Positions 1-23,562 of a DNA stretch of 36,317 bases are shown in pieces. The position numbers and the translations under genes were made by a program. The notes beneath the pieces were generated by a model, which worked only from the letters and a program-made list of their open reading frames with translations, was not told the DNA's origin and made no database searches. Origin of the DNA: Saprospiraceae bacterium (GTDB lineage Bacteria; Bacteroidota; Bacteroidia; Chitinophagales; Saprospiraceae); the NCBI GenBank assembly GCA_020629475.1, contig JAHDDF010000004.1, forward strand, positions 1 through 36,317, in the 5' to 3' direction. Position 1 is the first letter of the stretch. The number at the start of each line of letters is the position of its first letter.

Positions 1-1604
1 AAATAGAAATCAATATTTTGGAGGAGTGGTTTGGCTTCCGGATCACGCTCATAGGTCGTGTTCTTGAGTTTCTCCGGAGCCGGGGCAGGAGTCATAAAGG
101 AAACCACGAACATCACGATGGCACAAACCACGAACATGATGATGGCGTAGTGCAAAAAGTTTATGCCTACTAAAGAATGCATGAAGCTACCGTCAGCAAA
201 AGGGCTAGATTTGTGGACTGCCTCCATGATTAATCGGAAGGAACCCATAAATAACCCCGTAAGTAATGCCGCCATTGCGCCTTGACCATTCAAACGTTTA
301 AAGAAAAGCCCGAAGAGGAAGACCACGGCAATTGGAGGGGAAATGTATCCTTGGATGGATTGTAGGTATTTGTAAACACCGTCACCTTCCATAAGGGTTT
401 TCATGAAAGGAATCCAGGCTAAACCGGAAATCACCAAAACCAAGGTGGCGATACGACCTACGTTTACCAAAGTTTTTTCCTCTGCATCCGGATACCACTT
501 CTTGTAAAAATCCAGAGTAAATAAAGTCGATGCCGAGTTAAACACGGAGGACAAGGAACTCATGAGTGCCGCTAGCATCCCCGCTACCACCAAGCCCCGT
601 AATCCCATAGGTAAGAAGTTCATTGCCAGTGCGGGTAAGGCAAGATCATTATCCTGTAAACCTGTTTCAGGATCAATTAATAAAGTAGGATCCTCTTTCA
701 GGAAAATGGCGTAAGCAATAATTCCCGGAACCACGAACAAGAAGATGGGAAGTAACTTTAAGAAACCACCAAAAATGGTACCTTTCCTTGCCTCGGAAAT
801 GTTCTTGGCGGATAAGGTTCTTTGTACGATAAATTGATCCGTACACCAATACCATATCCCTAAAATCGGGGCACCGAAAAGGACACCCGTCCAAGGAAAA
901 TCAGGGTCATCCATAGGACGCCATAGGCTGAGCCAATCCATCGATTCCGAGCCGTGAGTCAGATACAACTGATGATTTACACCGCTCCATCCTCCAATGG
1001 CTTTTAAGCCAAAATATGTAACCGCTAAAGAACCGGCTACCAATACGAACATTTGAATCATATCCGTATAAATAACGGCACGTAATCCACCCCAAATGGT
1101 ATATAATCCGGTAGCTAATACTACTAGAGTGGCGCCTATCCAAAACGGCACGCCCAACATTAATTTAAATACAAGGGCACCCGCAAATATGGTAATGGAA
1201 ATCTTGGTGGCTACGTAGGCAAAAATCGAAACGATGGACAGGTAATTCCTAGCTCCTGTAGAATATCTTTTCTCCAGGAACTCAGGCATGGTAAACACCC
1301 CTGATTTAATATAAAACGGAACAAAAACCCATCCTAATAATATCAATATTAAAGTAGCCAACAATTCAAACTGACCGGCGGCGAAATCACCGTTGGCACC
1401 GGAGCCCGCAAGCCCGACCAAATGCTCTGAACCGATATTGGAAGCAAATAAGGAAGCTCCGATTACGAACCAACCGATATTCCTGCCCGCTAGGAAATAA
1501 TCCTCGGAGCTATTTTCTTTTTTTTCTTTTTGGGTCACGAAAAAAGCAACCGCAAAAATCCCTAGAAAATATCCCGAGATAACGACCCAATCTAATACTT
1601 CCAT
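1..1604 (-). CDS. Sodium/solute symporter (SSS/SGLT-type), 3' end cut by window edge
   Basis: Predicted inner-membrane Na+-coupled sugar symporter of the SSS family (SLC5/vSGLT fold). The reading frame opens with ATG at 1604 (MEVLDWVVISGYF) and stays open for 534 codons to the left edge without a stop, so the C-terminus is missing. It is highly hydrophobic, with many transmembrane segments. It contains the SGLT-like stretch GSEHLVGLAGSGAN near residues 58-71 and a TM segment followed by YTDMIQMFVL, both typical of glucose/galactose-type members. It lies downstream of the GH16 gene on the same strand, beyond a strong terminator, so it may be transcribed separately or by read-through. In context it probably imports the glucose released from the glycan that the neighbouring locus degrades. 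The substrate is inferred from neighbourhood and could also be another sugar or myo-inositol. Confidence 0.88.
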   Translation of the reverse strand, partial: MEVLDWVVISGYFLGIFAVAFFVTQKEKKENSSEDYFLAGRNIGWFVIGASLFASNIGSEHLVGLAGSGANGDFAAGQFELLATLILILLGWVFVPFYIKSGVFTMPEFLEKRYSTGARNYLSIVSIFAYVATKISITIFAGALVFKLMLGVPFWIGATLVVLATGLYTIWGGLRAVIYTDMIQMFVLVAGSLAVTYFGLKAIGGWSGVNHQLYLTHGSESMDWLSLWRPMDDPDFPWTGVLFGAPILGIWYWCTDQFIVQRTLSAKNISEARKGTIFGGFLKLLPIFLFVVPGIIAYAIFLKEDPTLLIDPETGLQDNDLALPALAMNFLPMGLRGLVVAGMLAALMSSLSSVFNSASTLFTLDFYKKWYPDAEEKTLVNVGRIATLVLVISGLAWIPFMKTLMEGDGVYKYLQSIQGYISPPIAVVFLFGLFFKRLNGQGAMAALLTGLFMGSFRLIMEAVHKSSPFADGSFMHSLVGINFLHYAIIMFVVCAIVMFVVSFMTPAPAPEKLKNTTYERDPEAKPLLQNIDFY

Positions 1605-1857: not shown

Positions 1858-3069
1858 TTATTGAAATACCCTCACGTAATCCACTACCATAAATTGGGGG
1901 AATAGGGTATTCTCATCCGGGGAACCGGGCCAATCACCTCCTACCGCTACATTGAAAATAAAGAAGAAGGGCTGATTGAAAGGCCAAGGTTGACCATTAT
2001 TTAATTCCTCGGGTGTTACCTCGAAGTATAGATTATCATCTACCAGGATTTGAATGTTATCCTCCTCCCAAATTAAGGAGAATACATGGAATATCTCATC
2101 GAAATTCTCCCCTGAAGGTGTGATTCTTGATGAACCGGAAGAAGTGTGTTGGCTTGGATTTACACCGTAGTGTACCGTTCCGTGTACGATGTTGTTATTA
2201 TGACCAATCATTTCCATGATATCGATCTCACCGCATGAAGGCCAACCGTTGGTCCAGAAATCGGAACCTAACATCCACAATGCGGGCCACATACCGCGTC
2301 CTTTAGGCATAGCGGCACGGATATCAATCCTTCCGTATTGGAACTCTTGCTTACCTGCCGTAATGATCCTTGAGGAAGTATATTCAGAACCTTGGTAGGT
2401 TTCGTTTTTTGCTTCAATGACCAAGTAGTCATTCAATGCCATATAAGTATTTTCAGGGCGATAATGCTGTAATTCATTATTACCCCATCCATTACTTCCT
2501 GTTCCGGTTTCATGGGTCCAGTCGTCTAAATTCAAGGTTTCCCCTTGGAATTCATCCGCCCAAACCAAGGTACGCCCCGCGTAATTCAAAGGAGTGGTAT
2601 AACCTTCCGTAGGGATGGTAAGGCTATTGGTAAAGCCATCATCGTCATCCAGAATGGTAATGGTGGCACGGTTGTCCTCCATGGTAGCATTAATCGGATT
2701 CAATAAGATGAACTCAAAGGTTTCCTCGGGTTCCGTAATCAAATCACCCAATACGGTAATTTCAATAATTTTCTCGGTTTCACCCGGGCTGAATATAAGT
2801 TCGCCCAAAGCACCTTTATAATCCGCTCCTGAAGCGGCGGAACCTTCCACGGTATTATAACCAACAACGACATTGGTAATATTCTCTCCCGTGAGGGTTA
2901 CTTTCATCTCTACCACTTGTTCAATATTTCCCTCTTGGATTTGAACATCCTCTAAGGAAAGAACAGGTAAAACGGGATCCGGCAAGACATCCTCTTTACT
3001 ACAGGAAGCCGCCAAGAAAACCATTGCTATGATGATATAGAAGAATCTTTTATTCACTGTATGTTTCAT
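1858..3069 (-). CDS. Calx-beta/GH16 lipoprotein, probable endo-beta-1,3-glucanase (laminarinase)
   Basis: Predicted surface lipoprotein that cleaves internal beta-1,3 (or mixed 1,3/1,4) glucosidic bonds. The start chosen is ATG at 3069 (MKHTVNKRFF), giving 403 residues; a longer in-frame start would overlap the upstream gene and bury the signal peptide. Residues 1-22 are a signal sequence ending LAAS before Cys23. The acidic SKED after the Cys resembles Bacteroidota lipoprotein export signals. Residues ~45-141 form a Calx-beta domain (the TEPEETFEF stretch and a DDDD end). Residues ~165-403 are a GH16 domain with the catalytic ExDxxE motif (GEIDIMEMIG: Glu281 nucleophile, Asp283, Glu286 acid/base) and the usual WPALWMLG strand. 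The preceding PKD gene stops one base before this start, so translation is probably coupled. Laminarinase is the likeliest activity, but agarase/carrageenase-type GH16 cannot be fully excluded by eye. Confidence 0.9.
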   Translation of the reverse strand: MKHTVNKRFFYIIIAMVFLAASCSKEDVLPDPVLPVLSLEDVQIQEGNIEQVVEMKVTLTGENITNVVVGYNTVEGSAASGADYKGALGELIFSPGETEKIIEITVLGDLITEPEETFEFILLNPINATMEDNRATITILDDDDGFTNSLTIPTEGYTTPLNYAGRTLVWADEFQGETLNLDDWTHETGTGSNGWGNNELQHYRPENTYMALNDYLVIEAKNETYQGSEYTSSRIITAGKQEFQYGRIDIRAAMPKGRGMWPALWMLGSDFWTNGWPSCGEIDIMEMIGHNNNIVHGTVHYGVNPSQHTSSGSSRITPSGENFDEIFHVFSLIWEEDNIQILVDDNLYFEVTPEELNNGQPWPFNQPFFFIFNVAVGGDWPGSPDENTLFPQFMVVDYVRVFQ

Positions 3070-3070
3070 T

Positions 3071-3895
3071 TTAATTTGCGATGAAAGTAAGGGTAAACCA
3101 ACCCGGTGAGGCTGAACCATCACAAGGTTTGATTGGAGTAAGTAATACCATTTCCGTTTCCGTGATGGAGTAGATTTCGTATTCATTACCTGAATCCTCT
3201 ACGCCCATCCAAAAATCACCTGATACTACAATTTTCCAATCGGAATAATCCGTACCGCTGGGTACTACCACAAAACTAAGGTTAGCCGGAATGGGATAAT
3301 CCTCGACCACCACATAGCCCGCGCAAGCGGAAAAACTGGTATTATTATTCAAATAATCCAAGGAGGATTCCTCGAAATCGAAACAATAGAGATCATCCAT
3401 TTGCGCCCCGTCCAAACCGGAAGAAACGAAGAAATCATCCAACAGGGGCCCTGATCCTACGGTAATAGAACCTGCCTCCGGGGATAAGGTCCAACATTTA
3501 CTGGTACAGGCATTTGTTAGGAGAGCCAAGGTCTCATTACATTCAATAACCGCATCTTCCTCAACCACTACGGTTTGGGTAGAACTAGCCGTTCCGCCTC
3601 CACCGATAGCCGCGGCATGAAGGGTAATATCATATGAACCTGCCCTTTGGTAGAATACCGTATCCACATTCAAGGATGAATTGGCGGGAGAACCACCTTC
3701 AAAATCCCATAAGTGGTTAAAGAATCCGTCACCGTTAAAGGAGACGACAAACCTATTGGGGTTATCCACCGTTTGGGTAACCGTAAACTCAGGTTCATCC
3801 GGTAAGGGCGGCAAATCCCTTCCCTCATCCACTATCGGTTCACAAGAATATAAGAGGACTACCAGCAGGAAAAATAGAATTCTTACGTGTTTCAT
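3071..3895 (-). CDS. PKD-domain lipoprotein, probable surface glycan-binding protein
   Basis: A 274-residue lipoprotein: signal peptide with Cys18 (LLYSC) followed by an acidic stretch (EPIVDE) consistent with surface export. Residues ~35-115 form a PKD-like Ig-fold domain (FNHLWDFEGGSPANSS and a GSYDITLHAAA strand). Residues ~118-274 form a second domain starting at a Cys-containing CWTLSPEAG segment and ending in aromatic-rich beta strands (EYEIYSITETEMVLLTP). It has no recognisable catalytic motif. It lies between susD and the GH16 gene, the position occupied by PKD or SusE/F-like glycan-binding proteins in laminarin loci of marine Bacteroidota. A role in holding beta-glucan at the surface for the GH16 enzyme is inferred. 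It is 53 nt downstream of susD and one base upstream of the GH16 start. Confidence 0.78.
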   Translation of the reverse strand: MKHVRILFFLLVVLLYSCEPIVDEGRDLPPLPDEPEFTVTQTVDNPNRFVVSFNGDGFFNHLWDFEGGSPANSSLNVDTVFYQRAGSYDITLHAAAIGGGGTASSTQTVVVEEDAVIECNETLALLTNACTSKCWTLSPEAGSITVGSGPLLDDFFVSSGLDGAQMDDLYCFDFEESSLDYLNNNTSFSACAGYVVVEDYPIPANLSFVVVPSGTDYSDWKIVVSGDFWMGVEDSGNEYEIYSITETEMVLLTPIKPCDGSASPGWFTLTFIAN

Positions 3896-3948: not shown

Positions 3949-5457
3949 TTAATAACCCGGATTTTGGGTAATAGCACCATTCGTTGCTTGGATTTGGGAT
4001 TGGGGGATCGGGAAAAGATTATGTCTTCCTTCCACGTATCCCAAGGAACCCAAAGCCGTACTTGCTCGGCCGGTTCTTACCAAATCAAAGAAGCGGTGAC
4101 CTTCTAGAGCAAGTTCCACTCTTCTTTCATGGTAAATGGCATCCAATAAAGCCTGACCCGAAGCAGTCACGTCCGGAAGAACACCCGTTTCACCGGCTCT
4201 TGCTCTTTCCCTTACCATATTAAGGGATGATCTAGCAGCAGCTTCATTTCCGGAATGGTAGGAAGCCTCCGCATGAAGCAGAAGTATATCCGCGAACCTG
4301 ATTACCCTATCGTTAGAACCACCGTTATTCACGGGATCACCGAAGGAGGCTTCCTCGCTTAAGCTATTGAAGTATTTCTTAGCGTAATAATCGTGTGGGA
4401 AACCTGTAGCGTCCTTGGTAAAGATACCGCGGTCACCCATAGGTTCACCTTCCCTGAAAAGGGTGGATTTCAACCTTGGATCCTCATTATTCGGGTCCTC
4501 CATAAAGAAGGCATCCACTAGGTTTTGGGTAGGGATATTGAAACCGAAACCGGCAAATTGCCCTCTAGCCCTTTGGAAAACATTGGTAAGGGAACCTTCA
4601 TTGGGATTATCCCAAGTTCCACCGGATTCCGTCATGAATTGAATCTCGAAAATAGAACCGGGACCGTTTTCTCCCGCCGGCGTAAAGATTTGCGTAAAAT
4701 CAGGGTCAAGGAAATATTCCCCGGAATTCACGATTGCCTCAGCGGTGGATTTCGCATCCTGCCATTTTTCTTGGTATACGTATGCTTTTACCAAAAGGGC
4801 TTGTGCGGCACCTTTTGTAATACGCCCTAAATCACTGGCTGCATATTCGCTTTTCATGGGAAGATCTTGCGCCGCTTGAACCAAGTCGGATTCAATCAAT
4901 GCCCAAACTTCTTCCGCGGATGATCTCGGTAGATCATACTCCTCGGGAGATAATACACGATCCGCTAAGGGAACACCACCGAAAATGGTTACCAAATTGT
5001 AGAAGAAATACGAGCGGATGAATCTAGCTTCCCCTAGAATGCGGGATTTCAAAGCCTCATCCATTTCAATGGGCGGTACATTTTCCAATACCACATTGGC
5101 ACGATAAATCCCTTCGTAAGAAGCTTTCCACTCGGAGTCCAAGAGCTCACCGTTCAAGGGCGTTTGGAAAGTTTCAAGCAGTAATAATTCGAAAACATCG
5201 TTATCACCCGATCCTCCTTTATCGGAATCATCGGACATGATATCACCCCAAAACCAACGGAAATGCCCTGCGGGATTCCTTTCGAATTGAAGAGCGGCAT
5301 AAGCCGCATTCACGGCAACGATTGCATCATCCGCCGTCTTGTAAAAGTTTTCCTCCGTTTCCCCTACGATTGGCTCACGATTCAAGAAGCCATCGCAACC
5401 TGAAATCATCAAGAATAAGGGAAGTGCCACTAGGGCTATTAATTTTTTATTGTTCAT
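3949..5457 (-). CDS. SusD-like (RagB/SusD) nutrient-binding outer-membrane lipoprotein
   Basis: A 502-residue lipoprotein that forms the lid of a SusCD glycan importer on the outer surface. Residues 1-20 are a signal peptide with lipobox LMISG-C21, followed by DGFLNREP, a typical SusD N-terminus. The body carries family features: ANVVLENVPPIE, RFIRSYFFYNLVTIFGGVPL, a TPR-like helical core, and the C-terminal part with NDRVIRFADILLLHAEA, ERRVELALEGHRFFDLVRTG and a PIPQSQI segment. The length is normal for the family. It starts 11 nt after the susC stop codon, so the two are certainly one transcript. Substrate specificity cannot be read from SusD itself; beta-1,3-glucan is inferred from the GH16 gene downstream. 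Confidence 0.95.
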   Translation of the reverse strand: MNNKKLIALVALPLFLMISGCDGFLNREPIVGETEENFYKTADDAIVAVNAAYAALQFERNPAGHFRWFWGDIMSDDSDKGGSGDNDVFELLLLETFQTPLNGELLDSEWKASYEGIYRANVVLENVPPIEMDEALKSRILGEARFIRSYFFYNLVTIFGGVPLADRVLSPEEYDLPRSSAEEVWALIESDLVQAAQDLPMKSEYAASDLGRITKGAAQALLVKAYVYQEKWQDAKSTAEAIVNSGEYFLDPDFTQIFTPAGENGPGSIFEIQFMTESGGTWDNPNEGSLTNVFQRARGQFAGFGFNIPTQNLVDAFFMEDPNNEDPRLKSTLFREGEPMGDRGIFTKDATGFPHDYYAKKYFNSLSEEASFGDPVNNGGSNDRVIRFADILLLHAEASYHSGNEAAARSSLNMVRERARAGETGVLPDVTASGQALLDAIYHERRVELALEGHRFFDLVRTGRASTALGSLGYVEGRHNLFPIPQSQIQATNGAITQNPGY

Positions 5458-5468
5458 TTTACCTTTTA

Positions 5469-8400
5469 TTAAAACGTAACTTGAATACCTCCCAAGAAGG
5501 TTCTTGCTTGCGGATAGAAACCTCTATCGATACCTAATTCCAAACTGTTATCACGGACGATTGTTCCGATTTCAGGGTCCAATCCGGAATATTTGGTGAA
5601 GGTGAATAGATTTTGGGAGGCGATGTACACCCTCAGTTTCTTGATACGCACGGTCTCCAAAATCTTCTTGGGTACATTGTAACCCAACTGAACGTTTTTA
5701 ACCCTCATATAAGAACCATCCTCGATAAACCGATCCGAAATTCTTGAGTTTTGGTTCGGATCCTTGATATTTACCCTTGGTTCAATATCGGAGGTTCCTT
5801 CCCCCGTCCAACGATCCAAAACGGAAACAGGACGGTTTACGTAGTTAAAGTCATAACGCACGATTCCGTTGTAAACGTCATTTCCTGAAACGCCTTGAAG
5901 GAATATGCCTAAATCAAAGCCCTTGTACTCCAAATCAATGGTAGCACCGTAGGAGAACCTAGGTGTAGGATTACCGATGTAGGTTCTATCCAATTCATCG
6001 ATAACGCCATCGTTATTCAAATCCGCGAAACGAATATCGCCGGGAGCCGTTCCTTCATTTTGGAAAGCGTGCGCTTCAACTTCCGCTTGATTTTGGAAAA
6101 TACCGTCCGTTACGTAACCGAAGAATGAAGCGACGGGTTGCCCTACGTCCGTTTGGGAAGCGAAGGCATTCGCGGATTGGATAAACCCGGACAATACGGG
6201 GTCCCCTCCTAATCCGAGGTTGGTCACTTCATTTTTCACTACGGAGAAATTACCGCCTACACTATATTTAAGTGCGGTTGCTCTTTCACGATAGGTTGCC
6301 GAGAATTCCCAACCATTGTTTCTGATGGTCGCGATATTTTGTACCGGAGCCGCTGTTCCCGCGGTATGCGGGATAGGTGCGGCATACAACATATCACGTG
6401 TATTTTTGATGTAGTAATCCGTAGTAACATTCAGTTTACCGTCCCACAGTTCCACGTCCAATCCGATGTCGGTTTGCGTAATGGTTTCCCACTTGATATC
6501 CGGGTTAGCGGCGGTAGTTGCCACGGCTCCGTTCGTAATATCCTCGGCGGGTCCGAAAGCGTAATTTTGTCCTTGGAAAACGATGGTGGAGAATGCGTAA
6601 TCACCGATATTATTATTACCGTTACTTCCCCAGCTCGCCCTCAATTTAAGGAAACTAATGGGTGCGATATCGAAGAAATCCTCTTGTGAAATTACCCATC
6701 CTGCCGAGAAAGAAGGAAACACCCCAAATCGGTTATTGGCACCGAATCTAGAGGAACCATCTACCCTAAGCGTAGTTGAGAAGAGGTATTTATTATCGTA
6801 TTCGTAATTGGCACGCGTAAAGAAGGAAATCAAAGAGGATTCCGTTGCCCATTCCGATGCCGTTTGTGAGTCTATGGTTCCCGTAGCATTGGAGATATAA
6901 GCATCCTCGGGGTTATTGCTTGGTAATCCCGTATTGGCGCCACCACTTACGTGCTGCCTATTTTCTAGAATCGTATTACCGGCTAATGCCTCGAACTTGT
7001 GTTTTTCCTTGAATGTTTTCTCGTAGGTCAAAACATTCTCTAATTGCCAATTGATCCATGAATAACGATTTAAGACAACCGTATTCTCATCACTAATTTC
7101 TATGGAAGGAGCGTCATTGAGTGAGGTATCCACACTCAAATTAAAAATGGGGAAGAACAAGTCCTGGTTAGCGAAGGTAGCATCCACACTGTAGGAAGTC
7201 CTGAAGGAAAGCCCCTCCATGAATTTAATATTGGTGAAGACATTCGCTAAGACCCTGTTACTTGTCCACTCATCATTGGTTTGCTCGATTTGATGCACCG
7301 GGTTGGCTACATCAGTATCCGCGTAAAGGGAATAGGCATAAGTTCCGTCGAATTTCCTTACCGGAGTAATTGGATCCATGTTCAAGGCACGCATTAGAGG
7401 GGAAGTATATTGGCTATTTTCCGCCAAAGCATTCCTTGTAAAATGCGTAAAACCAATATTGGTACCAATATCCAACCAATCATTCACTTGGTTAGCACCA
7501 TTTAACCTTGCCGTATATCTTTCGAATCTGGCTTTGGGTCCACCCACGATTCCATCTTGCTTGAAGTAATTTCCGGAGACCGCGTACGTGGATTTCTCGG
7601 AGCCACCTGAGATACTCAGGTTGTGGCTCGTAATCGGTGCATCCTCGAATATGGCATCCTGCCAGTCGGTTCCTTCACCGAAAGCAAGTGGATTCATGAA
7701 TTCCGCAGGAGGTGTTTCCCCTGCCGCCAAGTATGCTTCATTTTGGATAATGGCATATTCGCGAGCATTCAAAAGGTGCATTTTTTTCGAGGGGCTTTGT
7801 ACCCCGAAATAACCTTCATAGGCAATAATACCGCCTTGGTTCTTTTTTCCTTTTTTGGTGGTAATTAATACTACCCCGTTTGCCCCCCTTGAACCATAGA
7901 TTGCCGCGGAAGCCGCATCCTTTAGGATATTAATAGACTCAATATCATTGGGGCTCAAGAAATCAAGACCCGACACGGGCACCCCGTCTACTATATATAG
8001 CGGATCACCACCGTTAATGGTACCCGTTCCACGAATACGGACGGTAAGTTCACTACCCGGGGAACCGGAGTTTTGGCTCACGGTTACACCCGATGTCCGC
8101 CCTTGGATGGCTTGCTCCGTCCGAAGGATAGGCGTCTCGGAAATGTCCTCCGCTTTGATTACGGATACGGAGCCACTGATTTTACTCCTTTCCGTAGTTC
8201 CGTAACCTACTACCACTACTTCCTCTAGAAGCGAACTTTCAGGAAACATATTAATGGTTCCTAAGTCACCCGGACCGGATACCTCAACCTCTAGGGTTTT
8301 AAGTCCCACATAACTGAATAGAAGTACGGCATCCCCATCAGGAACACCAACGGAGAAGCTTCCGTCAAAATCCGTCACGGTTCCGAGATTGTCCGGATTA

Positions 8401-8546
8401 TCCTTTACCTCAATGGTCGCCCCTATTACAGGCTCCCCATCCTCGGAGGATAAAACTATCCCGGTCACGGTGTATGTTTGGGAGAATAAGCCCACAGGTA
8501 AGAGAAAGACCAAGGTCAAACCTGTAATTAATGTAGATATCCTCAT
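5469..8546 (-). CDS. SusC-like TonB-linked outer-membrane receptor
   Basis: A 1025-residue TonB-dependent outer-membrane channel that imports oligosaccharides with its SusD partner. A signal peptide covers residues 1-22. Residues ~24-90 form the carboxypeptidase-regulatory-like domain (VTGIVLSSEDGEPVIGATI). A SusC-type EEVVVVGYGT motif at 108-117 precedes the plug (~118-235, with GSRGANGVVLITTKKGKK). The rest is a beta-barrel ending in aromatic FLGGIQVTF. It is the first gene of the operon susC-susD-PKD-GH16. A TAnnTTTG element lies 63-70 bp upstream of the start codon, and the direct repeat at 8661-8697 lies further upstream. The lack of a good -33 box suggests activator-dependent transcription. 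Confidence 0.95.
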   Translation of the reverse strand: MRISTLITGLTLVFLLPVGLFSQTYTVTGIVLSSEDGEPVIGATIEVKDNPDNLGTVTDFDGSFSVGVPDGDAVLLFSYVGLKTLEVEVSGPGDLGTINMFPESSLLEEVVVVGYGTTERSKISGSVSVIKAEDISETPILRTEQAIQGRTSGVTVSQNSGSPGSELTVRIRGTGTINGGDPLYIVDGVPVSGLDFLSPNDIESINILKDAASAAIYGSRGANGVVLITTKKGKKNQGGIIAYEGYFGVQSPSKKMHLLNAREYAIIQNEAYLAAGETPPAEFMNPLAFGEGTDWQDAIFEDAPITSHNLSISGGSEKSTYAVSGNYFKQDGIVGGPKARFERYTARLNGANQVNDWLDIGTNIGFTHFTRNALAENSQYTSPLMRALNMDPITPVRKFDGTYAYSLYADTDVANPVHQIEQTNDEWTSNRVLANVFTNIKFMEGLSFRTSYSVDATFANQDLFFPIFNLSVDTSLNDAPSIEISDENTVVLNRYSWINWQLENVLTYEKTFKEKHKFEALAGNTILENRQHVSGGANTGLPSNNPEDAYISNATGTIDSQTASEWATESSLISFFTRANYEYDNKYLFSTTLRVDGSSRFGANNRFGVFPSFSAGWVISQEDFFDIAPISFLKLRASWGSNGNNNIGDYAFSTIVFQGQNYAFGPAEDITNGAVATTAANPDIKWETITQTDIGLDVELWDGKLNVTTDYYIKNTRDMLYAAPIPHTAGTAAPVQNIATIRNNGWEFSATYRERATALKYSVGGNFSVVKNEVTNLGLGGDPVLSGFIQSANAFASQTDVGQPVASFFGYVTDGIFQNQAEVEAHAFQNEGTAPGDIRFADLNNDGVIDELDRTYIGNPTPRFSYGATIDLEYKGFDLGIFLQGVSGNDVYNGIVRYDFNYVNRPVSVLDRWTGEGTSDIEPRVNIKDPNQNSRISDRFIEDGSYMRVKNVQLGYNVPKKILETVRIKKLRVYIASQNLFTFTKYSGLDPEIGTIVRDNSLELGIDRGFYPQARTFLGGIQVTF

Positions 8547-8608: not shown

Positions 8609-8616
8609 CAAATGTA
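8609..8616 (-). promoter_or_regulatory. Candidate -7 box of the susC promoter
   Basis: On the minus strand this reads TACATTTG, an exact match to the Bacteroidota -7 consensus TAnnTTTG. No TTTG/TTG lies 17-23 nt upstream, so the promoter probably needs an activator. The direct repeat 8661-8697 is at about -57 to -93 from the predicted start site. The same octamer serves the metalloprotease promoter at 30809-30816. Confidence 0.5.
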
Positions 8617-8660: not shown

Positions 8661-8697
8661 CATTGTTGTGGTAATTTAATTCCATTGTTGTGGTAAT
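8661..8697. promoter_or_regulatory. Perfect 15-bp direct repeat, candidate operator for the divergent glycan locus
   Basis: CATTGTTGTGGTAAT occurs at 8661-8675 and again at 8683-8697, identical in all 15 positions. The 22-bp period is about two helical turns, so both copies face the same side of the DNA. The pair lies between the two divergent -7 elements (44 bp from the susC one, 38 bp from the other). This is the layout expected for a dimeric activator serving both genes, and the SusR-like regulator at 11149-14001 is the obvious candidate. The binding partner is inferred. Confidence 0.6.
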
Positions 8698-8735
8698 GAT
8701 GTGGCAAAAGATCAAATAAAGGGCAGTAAAAAGCT

Positions 8736-8743
8736 TAAATTTG
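8736..8743 (+). promoter_or_regulatory. Candidate -7 box for the five-module binding-protein gene
   Basis: TAAATTTG matches TAnnTTTG exactly. No -33 TTG is visible at the usual spacing. It would give a leader of about 165 nt before the ATG at 8918, containing the inverted repeats at 8797-8826 and 8848-8888. Confidence 0.45.
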
Positions 8744-8917: not shown

Positions 8918-10966
8918 ATGAAAAAGAGTTTTACCTTATTTATCTCAGCATTGTTCCTTTGCATGGGAATGTTGAGTGCCCAAGATTACAATGTCACCTT
9001 TAGAGTAGACATGGCTGCCTATGATGATGCGGCAAGTACCGCAAACGGCGTTTTCATCAACAGTTCCTTCAATGGCTGGTGCGGTGGCTGTAATCAAATG
9101 GATGATTCTGATGGTGATGGTGTATATGAAATCACCATTCCCCTTCCCGCAGGCATTTATGAGTACAAATTCACCGTAGATGGCTGGACGGACCAGGAGA
9201 ACCTTACCGATGGTGATCCATGTACCTCCACCATTGATGGTTTCACGAACAGAACCATTGAGGTAGTGGATGCCGATATTTCACTGGATGCGGCATGTTG
9301 GGACATTTGTGACGCATGTCCTTCCGCACAAGACGGCAACATTACTTTTCGTGTAGACATGAACGAATACGGCGGTTCTACAGCGAATGGTGTATTTGTA
9401 AACGGTACCTTCAACGGATGGTGCGGTAGTTGTAACCCTATGGATGATTCCGATATGGATGGTGTTTGGGAGGTTACCCTACCGTTGATGGCAGGTGACT
9501 ACGAGTACAAATTTACCGTTGATGGCTGGACTGATCAAGAAAGCCTAACGGATGGTGATCCTTGTGTAATGACAACAGATGGCTACACTAACAGAACTCT
9601 TTCCGTAAACGGTGACGGGGATCAAGGTGTCGTTTGTTGGAACAGTTGTTTTGCTTGTGGACAAGAACCGGTTAATAGCATGGTAACTTTTAGTGTTGAC
9701 ATGAACGAGTACGGTGGTTCCACCGCTAATGGTGTATTCTTGAACGGCTCCTTCAACGGATGGTGCGGTAATTGTACCCCTATGGACGATTCCGATATGG
9801 ATGGCGTTTGGGAAGTTACCGCTGAACTTCAAAACGGAACTTACGAGTACAAGTTTACCGTGGATGGTTGGAGTGATCAGGAGTTCTTTGCTGAAGGAGA
9901 TCCTTGTACAACTACCATTGATGGATTCACCAATAGAACCATCGATGTAGCGGGTGACGCTAGTTTACCTACGGTTTGCTGGGCGAGCTGTGATGCTTGT
10001 GGCGTAGGTCCGGGCTTGGCTGCGGTTACTTTCCAAGTAGACATGAATGAGTACGGCGGTTCTACCGCGAACGGTGTATTCTTGAACGGCTCCTTCAATG
10101 GATGGTGCGGTAGTTGTGCACCAATGGATGATTCCGATATGGACGGCATCTGGACCGTAACCGTGGATCTTCCTCAAGATACTTTTGAGTATAAGTTCAC
10201 CGTGGATGGTTGGAACGATCAAGAATTCCTTACGGAAGGAGATGTTTGTACCACCACTATTGATGGTTACACCAACAGGAGCGTTATCGTTACGGGAGAT
10301 GCTACCTTGGATGCTGTTTGTTGGGCGTCTTGCTTTGCTTGCGGAGCGGAGCCGGTGGATAATAATATTACTTTCCGTGTAGACATGCAGGATTACACAG
10401 GTTCTACCGCGAATGGCGTATTCATAAACGGTACATTCAATGACTGGTGTGGCGGCTGTGCGCCAATGGATGATTCCGATGGTGACGGTATCTGGGAGAT
10501 TACCATTCCATTACCGAATGGAACGTACGAATTCAAGTACACCGTAGACGGTTGGAATGACCAAGAGGAATTAACGGAAGGTGATGAGTGTACAACCACT
10601 ATTGATGGCTTTACCAACCGTACCATTACCGTTGTAAGTATGGATGAAACGTTAACGGCTTACTGCTGGAACACTTGCTTTGAGTGTTTCGGTGTGGGAA
10701 TCGAGGATTCCGAGATATTCCAAAGCTTGGATATTTCACCGAATCCGGCTTCCGAAATGTTGAACGTTAATTTGGCTTGGACACAGAACGTGGATACTGA
10801 AATCCGCTTGATTGATGTAATCGGTCAAACGGTTATCCGTGAAAATGCCAATTTTGATAATATGACTTTCAACTGGGATGTTTCCGGTTTGAGCGCGGGT
10901 ATTTACTTGCTACAAGTTCAAACGGCTGAAGGTAACTTGACCAGAAAAGTCGTTATTGGAAGATAA
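8918..10966 (+). CDS. Secreted protein of five tandem CBM-like modules with T9SS sorting domain
   Basis: A 682-residue exported protein. Residues 1-21 are a signal peptide. Five ~110-residue modules lie at about 24-134, 140-247, 255-361, 368-475 and 483-590. Each has the pattern VTFxVDMxxY, STANGVFxNGxFNGW, CGxC, PMDDSDxDGxW, YEYKFTVDGWxDQE, GDxC, GFTNR and CWxxCxxC. This resembles a glycogen/starch-binding-type Ig-like E-set fold (CBM20/CBM48-like) with an added set of about five conserved Cys per module. Similar modules are, from memory, attached to GH16 enzymes in other Bacteroidota. Residues ~600-682 form a type A T9SS C-terminal domain (ISPNPASEMLNV to RKVVIGR). No catalytic domain is seen, so a multivalent glycan-binding role is inferred; beta-glucan is likely from context. 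It is divergent from susC and shares its control region. Confidence 0.85.
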   Translation: MKKSFTLFISALFLCMGMLSAQDYNVTFRVDMAAYDDAASTANGVFINSSFNGWCGGCNQMDDSDGDGVYEITIPLPAGIYEYKFTVDGWTDQENLTDGDPCTSTIDGFTNRTIEVVDADISLDAACWDICDACPSAQDGNITFRVDMNEYGGSTANGVFVNGTFNGWCGSCNPMDDSDMDGVWEVTLPLMAGDYEYKFTVDGWTDQESLTDGDPCVMTTDGYTNRTLSVNGDGDQGVVCWNSCFACGQEPVNSMVTFSVDMNEYGGSTANGVFLNGSFNGWCGNCTPMDDSDMDGVWEVTAELQNGTYEYKFTVDGWSDQEFFAEGDPCTTTIDGFTNRTIDVAGDASLPTVCWASCDACGVGPGLAAVTFQVDMNEYGGSTANGVFLNGSFNGWCGSCAPMDDSDMDGIWTVTVDLPQDTFEYKFTVDGWNDQEFLTEGDVCTTTIDGYTNRSVIVTGDATLDAVCWASCFACGAEPVDNNITFRVDMQDYTGSTANGVFINGTFNDWCGGCAPMDDSDGDGIWEITIPLPNGTYEFKYTVDGWNDQEELTEGDECTTTIDGFTNRTITVVSMDETLTAYCWNTCFECFGVGIEDSEIFQSLDISPNPASEMLNVNLAWTQNVDTEIRLIDVIGQTVIRENANFDNMTFNWDVSGLSAGIYLLQVQTAEGNLTRKVVIGR

Positions 10967-11148: not shown

Positions 11149-14001
11149 CTATACGTCCATGATGAAATCAACAAGGTTGACGGAGGAATCCAAGTCTAAT
11201 TTTTTCCTGAGTCTATAGCGTGAAACCTCGACACTACGTGTGGTAATATTAAGAAGGGTAGCAATTTCCTTAGAGGAAAGATTCATTCTTAGGTAAGCGC
11301 ACAAACGGTAATCCTTTGGGGTAAGTTGGGGGAATTTCTCACGAAGTCGTTTTATAAAATCAGTGTGTACCTGATCAAAATATTGCTCGAAAGAGTCCCA
11401 ATCATCATCTAGGCGAAAATCCTTTTCAATGGTGCGGATAATTTTCCGGATACCGTCACGAATGGCTTTCTCGCTTTCCAAATTGGTAATTTTGCTCAGT
11501 TCCTCCTTGATCTTAAGGAGGATTTCTCCTTTTTGCACCAATGCCATAGTGGAGGAAGCCAACTCGGAATTCTTGAATTTCACTTCCGATTCCAATTTTT
11601 CCGTTCTTAAGCGTACTAATTCCTCCTCGGATTCCTTAACCCTTCTCTCGTATTCCTTTTCCCGGGATTCCAATTGCTCCTTCTGTCTTTCTTGGAGATT
11701 CCGGGTTTCCTTCTCATGCCTATCCCTAGGTATCCACCAGATAAGGTAGATTAAGAACAAGGCAAAAAGGAAATACATGAGTTTCGCTAAATTGGTAGCG
11801 TACCATGGTGCCTTAATTCTAAAAGCATAAGAAACCGCTTCACCCGCTTCCTCCCCTTTTCTTTTTGCTTTGACCCAAAACAAGTAATTCCCGGCAGGTA
11901 GCTGCGTAATACTACGTTCCGGTGAGTCCGTCCAATCTAACCAATCCCGATCAAAACCATCCAATTTGGTGGAATACATAATACCGTCTCCCCTACTGAA
12001 ATCATCCGAAGCCAAGCGGAATTTCAAATTATTATCCCTAAAGCTAATTTCAGGAAGCCGGCTTTGTTCCATTGAGGGCGTACCGTTTTTCATAAAATAC
12101 CCGCCAAAAAGAAGGGAATCCAAATTCACCCCTACCATGATCTCCGTAATTCGAGCCTTGGGAAGGATGGGAGCCGTTTTCTCCTCCGGGAAATAGGCTA
12201 TAAAACCACTTTCCGAACCAAAAAGCACTCGCTCCTTGGAATAAGGATAAATGTATTCGAAGTTTTCTATGAGCCGCCCTTTGAGCGGAGGCAGGGGAAT
12301 CTTCTCCCATTCGCCTTTGGTAAGCAAGGATGTGGCATCCACGTAACCAACCTCTTTATTCTCAACGTACCATAATCTACCAAAACCATCGTCTACCAAT
12401 CGGGTAAGTTGACAATCCTCGCCAAATACCGCATTCAGGTTTTCGTGAGGTAGCATTCGGTCGGTTTCCTTATCGTAGAAATAAATCCCACGTTCAGTGG
12501 TGAAGACAATTTGCTCATCTATTTTACTGAGGTTGATCCCGATGTCAGAGGGAAACCCGTCCTTAGAATCATATCGTTTAAAATCCTTGAACTTCCCATC
12601 GGTACCCGAAACCTTAAAAACGCCCTTATAAACATGGCTGATCCAAACATCATCCCCTTCCATCTCAAAAATGCGGCAAGATTCATTCAAGCGGAATTCC
12701 TCCTCCTCTCCTGACACCGGATGATATACCAATCCAAAATACGTTCCTTCCAGATATCCGTTTTTCCAATCCTTAAGCAACCAAGAACCCGGTCCTGAGG
12801 CACGAACAGGAACAACTCCTGATGATTTTACCTCAAAAAGCCCAAAATGCTTATGCAAAAACAAACGCCCGTCCCATTCCGAAAGATTCCAGCATAAGCC
12901 TTCTCCTCCGGGGACTCTAGAAAAACCGTTCGAGTCATGCTTGTACAGGCCTTGGCTGGTAGCAAAATAGGGAACACCATTAAAAACCTTAACCGCATAG
13001 CCATAGGGTACCTGTCGTAAATCAGGACTAATGTACCTGAAAGGTTCTCCCATCCGAAGGTAGTGGAAACCGTTTTCGGTCCCTACCCATAAATTACCCA
13101 AAGCATCAAACAAAAGGGCCTGGACCGCATTGCTTCTTAAACCGTTTTCTTGGGAATAATATTGGATTTCATTCCCTTCCTTATCCAAGAATAATATACC
13201 GCCCGAGATCGTTCCAACCACCAAACCGCCATTCAAATCAGGAACGGCGGTTTTAATCCCTAATCCCTTAAGTTTGGCATCGGCCGTGGTTTGCCAATTG
13301 CTGATACTGTCTCCTTCTAACTTATAAAAACCTCTGCTCCACGTCCCCAATAGCAGTTTATCGCCGAGTTCAAGGACACAGGTTACCTCCTTATCAGCGA
13401 ATATTTCCCCGCCTTTTACCTTGGAATAAGTATCGCCTTCTAGGGTTCGGATACCTTTTGATTGATCATCCACCCAAATTTTTCCTGCCGTATTCCCAAG
13501 GAATTCAAGGGTTGACGAATTTTGTAGGACCTTCATGTTTTCCGTTCCCACATCCCAAACAAAAACCCGTTGCAATGACTTAAAATATGCTTTTCCGTTT
13601 TCAACGGCGATATGCCTAATATCCGAGAATTCCAGATGCTCGTCCGGTAATAGGTTTTTAAGGGAGCGGTATTTCAACGCCCCTTTATCATCCGGTAAAA
13701 AATACCCGAACTCGCCTTGTCCCCCTGCCAGAATAATATTGTTATCATCCACGGCAATTGAAAGAACCGGAGTTTTGTTGCTTAATGGCACCAAGGAAAA
13801 CCGGGTGCCGTCAAAACTTAATAAACCTTTGGAATTTGCGATGTGAAGCATCCCTGTTTTGTCCATTACAAAACCCCGGTTTGCTTGACCTCCATCGTAA
13901 TCCTCCTTTAAATAGGTATCAATAAAGGGTGTGCCTTGAGCCAGCAAGCCCAAGGGATAAAGTAAAATAAACGCAAATATGAAATGGTAGATTAGGCGCA
14001 T
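11149..14001 (-). CDS. SusR-like membrane-spanning sensor/transcription regulator (propeller-Y_Y_Y-TM-LuxR HTH)
   Basis: A 950-residue one-component sensor that spans the inner membrane. It has a signal peptide or first TM at 1-22 and a long periplasmic part (~23-660) made of Reg_prop-type beta-propeller repeats, for example GNLWVGTENGFHYL and RLWYVENKEVGYV. A Y_Y_Y domain lies at ~668-733 (YSTKLDGFDRDWLDW, LPAGNYLFWVKA). One TM helix at ~738-758 (LAKLMYFLFALFLIYLIWW) is followed by a charged coiled coil (~759-840) and a C-terminal LuxR/GerE-type HTH at ~893-950 (LTPKDYRLCAYL, SKEIATLLNITTRSVEVSRYRLRKKL). It has no histidine kinase or receiver domain, so signalling is direct, as in SusR-type regulators. 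It is convergent with the five-module gene and probably controls the divergent promoters at 8609-8743 in response to glycan fragments (inferred). Confidence 0.9.
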   Translation of the reverse strand: MRLIYHFIFAFILLYPLGLLAQGTPFIDTYLKEDYDGGQANRGFVMDKTGMLHIANSKGLLSFDGTRFSLVPLSNKTPVLSIAVDDNNIILAGGQGEFGYFLPDDKGALKYRSLKNLLPDEHLEFSDIRHIAVENGKAYFKSLQRVFVWDVGTENMKVLQNSSTLEFLGNTAGKIWVDDQSKGIRTLEGDTYSKVKGGEIFADKEVTCVLELGDKLLLGTWSRGFYKLEGDSISNWQTTADAKLKGLGIKTAVPDLNGGLVVGTISGGILFLDKEGNEIQYYSQENGLRSNAVQALLFDALGNLWVGTENGFHYLRMGEPFRYISPDLRQVPYGYAVKVFNGVPYFATSQGLYKHDSNGFSRVPGGEGLCWNLSEWDGRLFLHKHFGLFEVKSSGVVPVRASGPGSWLLKDWKNGYLEGTYFGLVYHPVSGEEEEFRLNESCRIFEMEGDDVWISHVYKGVFKVSGTDGKFKDFKRYDSKDGFPSDIGINLSKIDEQIVFTTERGIYFYDKETDRMLPHENLNAVFGEDCQLTRLVDDGFGRLWYVENKEVGYVDATSLLTKGEWEKIPLPPLKGRLIENFEYIYPYSKERVLFGSESGFIAYFPEEKTAPILPKARITEIMVGVNLDSLLFGGYFMKNGTPSMEQSRLPEISFRDNNLKFRLASDDFSRGDGIMYSTKLDGFDRDWLDWTDSPERSITQLPAGNYLFWVKAKRKGEEAGEAVSYAFRIKAPWYATNLAKLMYFLFALFLIYLIWWIPRDRHEKETRNLQERQKEQLESREKEYERRVKESEEELVRLRTEKLESEVKFKNSELASSTMALVQKGEILLKIKEELSKITNLESEKAIRDGIRKIIRTIEKDFRLDDDWDSFEQYFDQVHTDFIKRLREKFPQLTPKDYRLCAYLRMNLSSKEIATLLNITTRSVEVSRYRLRKKLDLDSSVNLVDFIMDV

Positions 14002-20098: not shown

Positions 20099-20995
20099 TT
20101 AGAATTCCCAAAGATCATGTTCAAAGTTGAAAATCTCCAACCTGATTTTTTCCGACTCCAATAATAGATCAACACCTTGCAGGTAATCCTGAAGACGACG
20201 GTCATACACATTGGATTCTTTGTAAATATAGCTGGAGAAAAACCTCATCTCAAAAATGTCATGCCAGTTCATCGGAGCATTATCATTGCCCGAGTTAAAG
20301 GCTTGCTCACGAGCCAATGCCTCACGTGCATCCGGATAGTAGATCCAGAACATCGGCAGCTCGTAAAGGAAGTTACCTTGATCGTCGTACTCCTCTTTCA
20401 AGGGAGCGATGCCCAAGATACGAACCTGAAGGGTGGACGTTTCCTCATCGAAGAACCATACTTCCTTGATACGGAAACGCTTAATGTCTTCCGGGTTCAA
20501 GTCGTTGTATGCTACCTCGATGGTCTCCTCGTAAGTTTCCGGGTCAAAGGATACGAAGGTATCCACCTCGGATACGAGAGCCGCGGCTTCGTCCTTGGAG
20601 AGGGTTTCGGAGAAGTCATCATTATCGTTGATACCGTAGGCGGTCAACGTTTCATCCATGACTCCATCCATCAGGATATTGAAGAAATAGCGCTTCGGGT
20701 AAACGAAAGGCTTATTCATTTTCTCACGCACGTCAATTACGCGCCAAATACGTTTTTCCCAAAAGATATCCGCCTCACGAAGTGGCTGATAGGGAAGTAC
20801 TCTTCTTTCCTTGATCAATCTCTTCTCAACGATATCGTTCAAGGGAACGTACTTATCGTCATCCTGGGTTTCACCGGATTCGGTTACATCAGTGCTTGGT
20901 GGCGTAAGATCTTGCGCCACGGTAACATTGGTACCGACGAAGAAAAACAGTAATAGAGAGAAAACGGAAATTTTCAGTTCGAATCTCATCTTCAA
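20099..20995 (-). CDS. gldN: Type IX secretion/gliding protein GldN (PorN)
   Basis: A 298-residue periplasmic protein that, with the lipoprotein GldK, forms the ring-like periplasmic/outer-membrane part of the T9SS. Its signal peptide ends around residue 28 (VTVAQ). Family features include YVPLNDIVEKRLIKERRVLPYQPLREADIFWEKRIWRVIDVREKMN, FFNILMDG and the C-terminal MFWIYYPDAREAL and MNWHDIFEMRFFSSYIYKESNVYDRRLQDY. The length is normal. It is the last gene of the operon, followed by a strong terminator, with an inverted repeat in the 107-nt gap after gldM. Confidence 0.95.
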   Translation of the reverse strand: MKMRFELKISVFSLLLFFFVGTNVTVAQDLTPPSTDVTESGETQDDDKYVPLNDIVEKRLIKERRVLPYQPLREADIFWEKRIWRVIDVREKMNKPFVYPKRYFFNILMDGVMDETLTAYGINDNDDFSETLSKDEAAALVSEVDTFVSFDPETYEETIEVAYNDLNPEDIKRFRIKEVWFFDEETSTLQVRILGIAPLKEEYDDQGNFLYELPMFWIYYPDAREALAREQAFNSGNDNAPMNWHDIFEMRFFSSYIYKESNVYDRRLQDYLQGVDLLLESEKIRLEIFNFEHDLWEF

Positions 20996-21037
20996 TAGGT
21001 GTTTAAATATAAAAGCTTCAGCAAGTGTTATCTAAGT

Positions 21038-21083
21038 TCGGAAATTTCCCCGACAATCTGATTTTGAACGGGAAAATTTCCGA
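21038..21083 (-). promoter_or_regulatory. Inverted repeat in the gldM-gldN gap
   Basis: TCGGAAATTTCCC (21038-21050) pairs with GGGAAAATTTCCGA (21070-21083), leaving one bulged base and a 19-nt loop. No poly-U follows on the minus strand, so it is more likely an mRNA stability or processing hairpin than a terminator. Confidence 0.45.
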
Positions 21084-21102
21084 CTATATTGTCCGGTTTG
21101 GA

Positions 21103-22764
21103 TTATTTGATGGTCCAAACCATTGAGTTCAACTTACGACCGGCTGAATCACCAGGACAACGCGCTTTGATGTTGTCGAAGTAATAGATATCACCGGGCT
21201 TAGCGGCTTTCACCAAGTTAGCCACACGACCACCGTAGGTAGCACCTTGGTTGGTAGCACGTACAGGGTCTTGACGCTTAGGTACACGAGTAAGTTCGAA
21301 ACCTGCGATGTTACACTTCGCCTCGAAGTCGAAGTTCAACAATGCGGCGAAGATACCTTTACGCGCACCGAAGGAACCGTTACCCATAGAACCGGAATCC
21401 TCACGCTTGTTCGGATTGAAGGATGCAACCGGGTCAGGAATACGCTTCACACGGAATGGGAAAGATTGGGTAAATCCTTCAGCGGATACCGTAATCTTAG
21501 CCTCACCGGGAGAAGATACACGTACATTGTACTTACCGCTACCACCGGTCATGTTACAACCACCACCGGAACAACTTGCACGTACCTTATTGGAGTTCGC
21601 ACCCGCAACGGATACCTCAACCGGGTTATCTACACCGATGTAGAAAACGTTCATCTTACTAGGAGAAACGGTTGCGGAACGTACACCTACCTCGTACTCG
21701 TACGATGCCTTAGCGGAGAATTTCTCACCGGAAAGCGGGTTGGTTACGTTTGCCGTCATGTTCAAGGTACGCTTACCAAGGGAGTTCGCCGTTTCGGAGA
21801 ATTGTCCTTGACCTTCAGCGTTCAAGCTGATTCTTTGCCCGTTAACGGAAACGGAGGAAGTTTTTGCGAATTCATTGGAGAATGCACCGATAGCAACAGT
21901 TGCCTCGAATTTCTCTCCTTTGATTACGTAACCCTTCTTCGCGTTCATTACAGGGAAGAACTTGTTCAACTTCAATTCACGACCACCTACCAAACCGGCA
22001 AGGTCGTTTACCATCAATGCTTCAGCGGCGCGTGCATCGGACTTGAATTTCTCAAGTTTAGGCATACAAGCCGCAAAAGGCATTTGGTAGAAGTTGTACT
22101 CAGCCCAAGAGTTTTTATCGGAACCTACCCAAGTGGAATCCACTTTCAAGGTAAGGTTGGCCTTAAAGTTAGCGATCTTTTGCTCTACCTCGGAATCCTT
22201 AAGTTTTGCCTCTTTTTGGCAAGCCTTCATGGTTTTAGAGTAGATAGCGATCATTTGGTTACGAGTGGAGTCAATCAATTGCTCCAAGTCGTCACCTTTC
22301 CCCTTTTTCACCATCCACCAAGTGGTCCAGTCCTTATCCTTGGAAGCTAGAGGCTTACCACCTTTATCAGGTGCAGCGTAATACTCCAAGTTATCAGGAG
22401 AAACATCAGGGATGAATCCGGAGATTTGATCGTCCGTAAGTTCCTGTCCTTTAGTGGAAACTACGAAAAGACCTTTTTTATAGTAATCTACTCGATCGTT
22501 GAACTCGGAAACGAAGTTCTGGATTTCGGAGATACCACTGTTCAAAGGCTCGCGAAGGCCTTTCTTTTTCTCAAGGATAGGTTGGATACCTTCCTTGGTC
22601 GCTTTTACCGCTTCTGCGGTAAGTTTATTAGACGTCTCCATGGATTTTTCCAAATCGTAGAAGGCGTTCATGATTTCCGCGGAAATATTCAGTGCGAGCA
22701 GCGCCATGAGTACCAAGTACATCAGGTTGATCATGAGCTGCCGCGGTTCCTTAGGAATTGACAT
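21103..22764 (-). CDS. gldM: Type IX secretion/gliding motor protein GldM (PorM)
   Basis: A 553-residue inner-membrane motor stator/rotor component. The N-terminal MSIPKEPRQLMINLMYLVLMALLALN gives one TM helix at ~11-30, preceded by Arg8. Arg8 corresponds to the conserved Arg (Arg9 in Flavobacterium) that interacts with the TM2 Glu of GldL. The rest is a long periplasmic shaft of D1-D4 type: helical to ~240, then beta domains (FEATVAIGAFSNEF, FYIGVDNPVEVSVAGANS, SFPFRVKRIPDPVASF). The C-terminal domain ends ARCPGDSAGRKLNSMVWTIK. GldM transmits proton-motive-force-driven movement from GldL to the GldKN ring. The start at 22764 is flanked by a 9-bp inverted repeat (22751-22800). Confidence 0.96.
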   Translation of the reverse strand: MSIPKEPRQLMINLMYLVLMALLALNISAEIMNAFYDLEKSMETSNKLTAEAVKATKEGIQPILEKKKGLREPLNSGISEIQNFVSEFNDRVDYYKKGLFVVSTKGQELTDDQISGFIPDVSPDNLEYYAAPDKGGKPLASKDKDWTTWWMVKKGKGDDLEQLIDSTRNQMIAIYSKTMKACQKEAKLKDSEVEQKIANFKANLTLKVDSTWVGSDKNSWAEYNFYQMPFAACMPKLEKFKSDARAAEALMVNDLAGLVGGRELKLNKFFPVMNAKKGYVIKGEKFEATVAIGAFSNEFAKTSSVSVNGQRISLNAEGQGQFSETANSLGKRTLNMTANVTNPLSGEKFSAKASYEYEVGVRSATVSPSKMNVFYIGVDNPVEVSVAGANSNKVRASCSGGGCNMTGGSGKYNVRVSSPGEAKITVSAEGFTQSFPFRVKRIPDPVASFNPNKREDSGSMGNGSFGARKGIFAALLNFDFEAKCNIAGFELTRVPKRQDPVRATNQGATYGGRVANLVKAAKPGDIYYFDNIKARCPGDSAGRKLNSMVWTIK

Positions 22765-22800
22765 AATGGTTCATTTTGTCGTTAATAAAAAAATTCCTAA
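22751..22800 (-). promoter_or_regulatory. Inverted repeat enclosing the gldM start codon
   Basis: TTAGGAATT (22751-22759) and AATTCCTAA (22792-22800) are perfect complements. In the mRNA the 5' arm lies in the gldL-gldM gap and the 3' arm covers codons 3-5 of gldM, so the start codon sits in the loop. A weaker bulged hairpin next to a T7 run (22786-22824) overlaps the same gap. Possible translational or attenuation control; inferred. Confidence 0.4.
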
Positions 22801-22821
22801 TCACGCAATAGCGATGATCAA

Positions 22822-23424: not shown

Positions 23425-23488
23425 TACTCCAGATTTTACAAAGGTTAGTTAATAAATAGGTTTCGAAAAAAATAGCGGGTTATTACAC

Positions 23489-23546
23489 AAAAGTGTAACC
23501 ATGTCGCCACATGTATAATGCGTCGCGACGAAATGGTTACACTTTT
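23489..23546. repeat. Perfect 14-bp inverted repeat between gldK and gldL
   Basis: AAAAGTGTAACCAT (23489-23502) is the exact complement of ATGGTTACACTTTT (23533-23546). Inside, GTCGC (23503-23507) pairs with GCGAC (23525-23529), extending the stem after a 3-nt bulge. The right-hand side also contains the self-complementary CGTCGCGACG (23521-23530). On the minus strand only TTTTG follows, so it is a poor terminator. It may act as an attenuator, processing site or operator inside the T9SS operon. Confidence 0.7.
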
Positions 23547-23562
23547 CTATAAAGGATTTTTA

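Follow-up and report, generated by a model that had tools for sequence, protein, structure and literature searches.

A predicted T9SS-exported array of five cysteine-rich CBM20/CBM48-fold modules linked to GH16 loci in Saprospiraceae and other Bacteroidota

Laminarin, an algal and fungal glucan, is a major store of algal carbon. Surface glycan-binding proteins (SGBPs; SusE/SusF-like) of PULs are normally lipoproteins encoded in the susCD operon. The laminarin PULs of Formosa combine enzymes of families GH16 and GH3 with a SusC/SusD pair and a PKD protein (PMC6246565). Multivalent beta-glucan binding is described for the CBM92 modules of secreted bacterial enzymes (PMC11039641), and starch binding is reported to be absent from the CBM48 domains of feruloyl esterases (wtsFae1A/B and DmCE1B) (PMC8040265). 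Here, we describe a Saprospiraceae protein with five tandem modules, an arrangement that is real, well conserved, and undescribed in the open-access literature searched, where we found neither this protein nor CBM48-like modules of laminarin loci reported.

The window, that is, the whole stretch of 36,317 nucleotides that was analyzed, corresponds to positions 1 to 36,317 of contig JAHDDF010000004.1 of a Saprospiraceae bacterium (GCA_020629475.1). Table 1 lists the features of the gene and its surroundings. The initial annotation had proposed a protein of five Cys-rich modules followed by a T9SS tail, and the open reading frame, the repeats, the Cys set, and the tail were all found there. The modules are 114 to 118 amino acids long and share 59 to 69% identity; compared with module 2, the other four are 63 to 69% identical, far above chance. 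Among the 31 Cys residues of the protein, one lies in the signal peptide and six in each module, always in the order CGxC, GDxC, and CWxxCxxC. The motifs said to be shared, FNGW and YEYKFTVDGW, hold for most modules, with departures in the last two: FNGW reads FNDW in module 5, and the strand, exact in modules 1 to 3, reads FEYKFTVDGW in module 4 and YEFKYTVDGW in module 5. Pfam and NCBIfam scans found no catalytic domain in the 682 amino acids. The protein has the characters of a T9SS type A cargo, with both sorting-domain models above their cut-offs and a signal peptide recognized by eye, and the same window encodes T9SS machinery (GldL, GldM, GldN, PorP/SprF, and a GldK-like FGE-sulfatase protein; 20099 to 26009). 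These T9SS/gliding core genes lie ca. 9 kb from the cargo gene, and farther along are two other secreted proteins with T9SS tails, an M43-like metallopeptidase with PKD repeats (28176 to 30848) and an endonuclease I (30909 to 32039).

Table 1. Positions in the window of the five-module gene, its parts, and the neighboring genes and sites
Feature	Position	Strand	Evidence or remark
Probable sodium:solute symporter, runs off contig	3..1604	-	Read from the translation; resembles ORFs of homologous loci
Lipoprotein with GH16 and Calx-beta domains, intact EIDIME active-site motif	1858..3069	-	PF00722, 81.5 bits
PKD-like lipoprotein, probable surface glycan-binding protein	3071..3895	-	PKD matches under cut-off; lipoprotein signal; kept in homologous loci
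SusD-like lipoprotein	3949..5457	-	PF07980, 139.8 bits
SusC-like TonB-dependent receptor	5469..8546	-	TIGR04056, 916.9 bits
Candidate -7 box of the SusC operon, TACATTTG	8609..8616	-	Motif only
Conserved operator-like element, three repeats, TGTTGTGGT-N13-TGTTGTGGT-N2-TGATGTGG	8664..8704	+	Start-to-start repeat spacings of 22 and 11 bp
Candidate Bacteroidota -7 box of the module gene, TAAATTTG	8736..8743	+	Motif match to TAnnTTTG
Five-module protein gene, predicted to be T9SS exported	8918..10966	+	682 aa, ATG start; ORF list, Pfam/NCBIfam
Signal peptide, aa about 1-21	8918..8980	+	Sequence reading (MKKSFTLFISALFLCMGMLSA/Q), by eye
Module 1, aa 24-139	8987..9334	+	AMPK1_CBM 35.4 bits, CBM_48 30.0 bits
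Module 2, aa 140-253	9335..9676	+	Modeled, pLDDT 95.5; Pfam matches
Module 3, aa 254-367	9677..10018	+	Pfam matches
Module 4, aa 368-481	10019..10360	+	Pfam matches
Module 5, aa 482-599	10361..10714	+	Pfam matches
T9SS type A sorting domain, aa 606-680	10733..10957	+	PF18962 53.8 bits (cut-off 27), TIGR04183 50.6 bits (cut-off 23)
Candidate regulator, Reg_prop / Y_Y_Y / LuxR-type HTH	11149..14001	-	Pfam/NCBIfam; convergent with the module gene

Taken singly, each of the five modules scored above the Pfam cut-offs of AMPK1_CBM (PF16561, 26.8) and CBM_48 (PF02922, 22.4), and none reached that of CBM_20 (23.3; best module, 17.6 bits; whole-protein sum, 32.6 bits). A structure model of module 2, built from 120 related modules (mean pLDDT of 95.5), had as its top Foldseek match the AMPK-beta glycogen-binding domain 1z0m (E value of 4.1e-6; TM of 0.80 on the target). 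The top VIA-align match was the CBM20 of human STBD1 with maltotetraose (8x8k; Z of 11.1, rmsd of 2.1, 87 residues), followed closely by CGTase, glucoamylase, and AMPK domains, and the fold matches included maltooligosaccharide- and cyclodextrin-binding domains. Therefore, judging by the model and these matches, the modules belong to the starch-binding fold class of CBM20/CBM48. The Cys pattern had been thought to set the modules apart from these families. At the family level this was wrong: the search with single modules assigned them to the already known AMPK1_CBM/CBM_48 families, the predicted structure had the CBM20/CBM48 fold rather than one apart from it, and a new superfamily or unfamiliar fold is ruled out by the same Pfam scores and structural matches. 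What survives is a distinct Cys-marked variant within them, with a CGxC that is missing from GH13-linked relatives (see below). The broader description of a noncatalytic, multivalent, T9SS-exported, carbohydrate-binding-like protein agrees with the domain scans, the five modules, the type A tail, and the fold.

In a profile search against PDB sequences, W29, K59, and W65 of the module aligned with AMPK-beta1 and N86 aligned with an Asn of yeast Sip2; we take these Trp, Lys, Trp, and Asn positions to be ligand contacts in AMPK and CBM20. Conservation was measured in 133 modules under 70% identity, whose profile provides the residue numbers. The canonical site was largely kept (W29, 94%; K59, 88%; W65, 87%; N86, 93%), as were two lineage-specific residues, E69 (95%) and R87 (96%), and four Cys residues, Cys77 (98%), Cys102 (93%), Cys106 (100%), and Cys109 (98%), which from the sequence pattern probably form two disulfides. 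Cys30 and Cys33, the CGxC pair, were both present in 87 modules, both absent in 37, single in 4, and gapped in 5, and these joint counts indicate that they are gained or lost as a unit, the behavior of a disulfide pair.

The module gene is divergent from the minus-strand genes for SusC, SusD, the PKD lipoprotein, and GH16. For the GH16 gene, the most likely start is 3069, which gives a lipoprotein signal (MKHTV...LAASC), instead of 3186, and the product has a weak NCBIfam match to the endo-1,3-1,4-beta-glycanase EglC. Across homologous loci, a Reg_prop/Y_Y_Y/LuxR gene also adjoins the module gene in L010, L013, L041, L074, and L090, and the SSF family is found among the neighbors of other module loci. 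We collected 78 loci by module similarity alone and examined their neighbors afterwards. Neighbors like those of the window recurred in Saprospiraceae (L009, L041, and L045) and in Flavobacteriales/Crocinitomicaceae (L011, L057, L065, L071, L082, and others), with GH3 as a frequent companion. In L057 and L082, the module and SusC genes have the same orientation and overlap at the beginning of SusC. Thirty-seven of the loci spanned 16 kb or more; GH16 was present in 26 of these, GH3 in 26, one or both in 30, SusD in 21, and GH13 in none. Module loci without SusC/SusD still had GH3, sugar transporters, and NrtR/AraR-type regulators nearby. Thus, the conserved linkage to SusC/SusD and GH16 expected of a laminarin-type PUL protein was found.

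The linkage was also measured in 30 genomes, in which module matches of 100 bits or more defined 44 loci. A GH16 domain lay within 10 kb of 26 of these loci, versus 0.72 expected from the number of GH16 domains and genome size, and a GH13 domain within 10 kb of none, versus 1.15 expected, in a set of genomes picked from the 78 loci with neighbors already known, many of them closely related, and with several module loci stopping at contig ends. The count over 37 loci is independent of this choice of genomes. Along similar lines, 7 of the 30 module-bearing genomes had no detectable GH13 and a single one no GH16; likewise, within the genus of the window, G005, G007, and G008 (assemblies 88 to 89% complete) had modules and GH16, and GH13 was absent. 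The survey of neighbors of homologues that the initial annotation had envisaged hence gave a GH16 linkage recurring across families.

The module family extends beyond such loci. Many module proteins (CotH, LTD, and PA-domain hosts and giant ORFs) are located away from GH16 loci, and in three of them (L016:1383-4802, L103:298-2403, and L106:661-3354) modules are joined with domains of the CotH kinase-like, lamin-tail, and PA kinds in proteins that have no glycan enzyme. Very large module-containing ORFs were found in G029:C45 (5,116 aa) and L083:8935-17508 (2,857 aa). In a same-genus genome, a single GH16/GH3 locus has three module genes (L045:5496-13120; 551, 719, and 577 aa), the third with divergent modules without CGxC. 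A tblastn search found no plasmid-borne relatives. A defense-related role was rejected, as there was no PADLOC match.

Lower-scoring modules fused or adjacent to GH13 enzymes form a second set of relatives (L107 to L113). One of their ORFs (L107:1435-8499; G061:C18) spans 2,355 aa or more and encodes nine modules preceded, in the same frame, by a GH13 domain, which makes its product a giant amylase-like protein with a module array. The context specificity of the module family is therefore less than absolute, since the broad family also serves GH13 proteins. GH13-linked modules mostly retain both Trp residues, the Lys, the Asn, and the Arg, and differ in two other characters. CGxC was found in none of 26 GH13-linked modules versus 40 of 53 modules in GH16 loci, and the aromatic residue of the TxxG(F/Y)TNR loop in 3 of 26 versus 49 of 53. 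Some GH16-locus modules lack CGxC (L046, L047, L093, L094, and L097), and as a sole marker of GH16 linkage it was discarded on account of several such proteins in Saprospiraceae and Crocinitomicaceae; the aromatic residue tracks the linkage better. A tree computed for 95 modules over 86 columns, with the CGxC and aromatic-loop columns left out, clustered the GH16/GH13 labels beyond shuffles, the GH13 group requiring 8 changes versus 21.6 in shuffled labels (0 of 500 as low), in a poorly resolved topology (2 starred branches) in which the labels form no two clean clades.

Five genomes, that of the window among them, encode modules fused to GH16. Single modules are fused in G000:C544 (L002, the genome of the window), G008/G088, and G045, with another in L082, and a pair is fused in G083. 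They mostly lack Arg87 and partly lack Lys59, and the module-bearing GH16 in the genome of the window has an ExDxE-type motif, EIDIE, versus EIDIME in the GH16 of the window. In the GH16 loci of Crocinitomicaceae, L011:8182-8676 and its homologues encode a conserved N-terminal domain of ca. 165 aa (GTWKLA...WWS...RACLFDD) before two modules, with no NCBIfam or Pfam match. Modeled as a possible second glucan-binding domain, it had a low pLDDT (67.6) and a best fold match, to fatty-acid-binding proteins, that was not significant (E value of 0.047); with a low-confidence model and no significant fold or NCBIfam match, it offers no clue to the ligand.

By aligning the divergent intergenic regions of the window, L009, and L041, we detected a single conserved block, the operator-like element of Table 1, in otherwise unconserved intergenic DNA. 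At 0 to 1 mismatch, the 60 genomes surveyed contained six copies, all within the genus of the window (one each in G000, G002, G003, and G005 and two in G007), five of them directly upstream of a module gene. The sixth (L124, G002:C131) precedes the gene for a secreted protein with Ser/Thr-rich repeats, a possible further regulon member. No match was found in 100 shuffles of the window, and a reversed-pattern control found no copies in the 60 genomes. The Bacteroidota -7 box has the consensus TAnnTTTG, and a box of this form begins 32 bp past the element (a 31-base gap) in the window, L009, and L041 alike. The position of the element between the divergent genes supports co-regulation of the module gene with the GH16 locus. 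The proposed link between the two is thus supported by its recurrence across families and by the conserved element in the shared intergenic region, with the small correction that the GH16 locus is divergently transcribed and lies outside the operon of the module gene. The LuxR-type regulator at 11149 to 14001 may be what binds the element.

Given their fold and site, starch is the main rival to a beta-glucan as the ligand of the modules. Alpha-glucan binders have this fold and these four site residues, and a prediction by name would be starch or glycogen. The modules would then be ordinary starch/glycogen-binding CBM48/CBM20 modules capturing alpha-glucan at the surface, in a GH16 neighborhood that is incidental. 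The Pfam assignment of every module, the matches to maltooligosaccharide- and cyclodextrin-binding domains, and the conserved W-K-W-N site all favor this, as do the existence of GH13-linked relatives and the presence of a GH13 cluster elsewhere in the genome of the window (G000:C479). We consider it unlikely, however, in view of the 44 strong module loci (none near GH13, 26 near GH16), the genomes with modules yet without GH13, and the sequence differences between GH13-linked and GH16-linked modules.

The GH16 family spans several beta-glucan and galactan activities, which weighs against reading the ligand as beta-1,3-glucan only. Capture could extend to another beta-glucan of GH16/GH3 enzymes (mixed-linkage beta-1,3/1,4-glucan, lichenan, or beta-1,6-branched glucan) and would not be specific for the beta-1,3 linkage. 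The weak EglC match of the GH16 of the window and the EIDIE motif of the module-bearing GH16, versus EIDIME, point in this direction, and GH3 does not discriminate between linkages. On the other hand, GH16, GH3, the SusC/SusD pair, and the PKD protein are the parts of the Formosa laminarin PULs (PMC6246565), and no cellulase or lichenase partner was found among the scanned part of the neighborhood genes, so that we regard this possibility as quite unlikely. Least plausible, to the point of being very improbable, are modules without a glycan ligand here that build a cysteine-rich structural or adhesive surface fiber. In favor of such a fiber, the CBM48 domains of two Dysgonomonas mossii CE1 esterases bound no tested glycan (PMC8040265), a CBM48-like domain also occurs in a T9SS plug protein, and some module hosts have no enzyme neighbors, but neither a surface site near-invariant in 133 diverse modules nor the strong GH16 linkage would be expected of a mere spacer.

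We therefore favor, as probable with some reserve, the view that the protein serves a utilization locus of the laminarin type (beta-1,3-glucan) as its multivalent glycan-binding protein at the surface, with the ligand suggested by the genome context. The signal peptide would then take the protein across the inner membrane and the T9SS across the outer one, and the type A tail would be expected to leave the array anchored at the cell surface. Each module would present the canonical site (Trp29, Lys59, Trp65, and Asn86) on a disulfide-stabilized CBM20/CBM48 fold, and the CGxC loop, the aromatic residue of the TxxG(F/Y)TNR loop, Arg87, and Glu69 may convert this site from one for helical alpha-1,4-glucan into one for the beta-1,3-glucan helix. 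With five such sites in a row, avidity would rise and the polymer would stay near the GH16, PKD, and SusD lipoproteins, with the oligosaccharide products imported through SusC. Genes on either side would be induced by the LuxR-type regulator through the three-repeat element that separates the divergent promoters.

Several described systems resemble parts of this arrangement. CBM48/AMPK-beta domains (PF02922 and PF16561) are the closest, given that every module passes both cut-offs, that the Trp, Lys, and Trp of the glycogen site align, and that the nearest solved structures by Foldseek are of this kind. Unlike them, the modules described here add the C-terminal CWxxCxxC, a Cys before a late strand, the CGxC loop, E69, and R87, and form a stand-alone tandem array with a T9SS tail near GH16 rather than GH13. 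CBM20, the best VIA-align match of the module 2 model (human STBD1, 8x8k), differs in that the modules are under the Pfam cut-off and that the matched CBM20 proteins are intracellular or amylase linked. The CBM48 domains of wtsFae1A/B and DmCE1B are likewise CBM48-fold modules in nonstarch systems, and wtsFae1B is among the Foldseek matches, but theirs is a single module packed on a CE1 enzyme of a xylan system, with no T9SS array. CBM92 (PMC11039641) is a separate, enzyme-appended family, while the array here has no catalytic domain. Like the SGBPs of PULs, the five-module protein is of a noncatalytic binding type tied to a SusC/SusD locus; in contrast to them, it is predicted to be T9SS exported and is divergently transcribed, and a PKD lipoprotein already occupies the SGBP place at the locus.

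A wider proposal, on which our judgment is evenly divided, is that a widespread branch of the CBM20/48 fold has changed its ligand and now binds beta-1,3-glucan, with the Trp-Lys-Trp-Asn site retained and the CGxC and aromatic TxxG(F/Y)TNR loops added, that it is deployed across Bacteroidota in T9SS-displayed arrays and GH16 fusions, and that it merits its own CBM (sub)family. Matches to CBM48 models are commonly taken to mean alpha-glucan binding, and should the branch prove to bind beta-1,3-glucan, annotations of this sort will mislabel laminarin systems. The GH16-linked and GH13-linked groups, built on the same four-residue platform, would be a ready set with which to study how a single fold discriminates between alpha-1,4 and beta-1,3 helices. 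If the proposed role is true, a T9SS-exported, nonlipoprotein type of capture protein would be added to laminarin loci.
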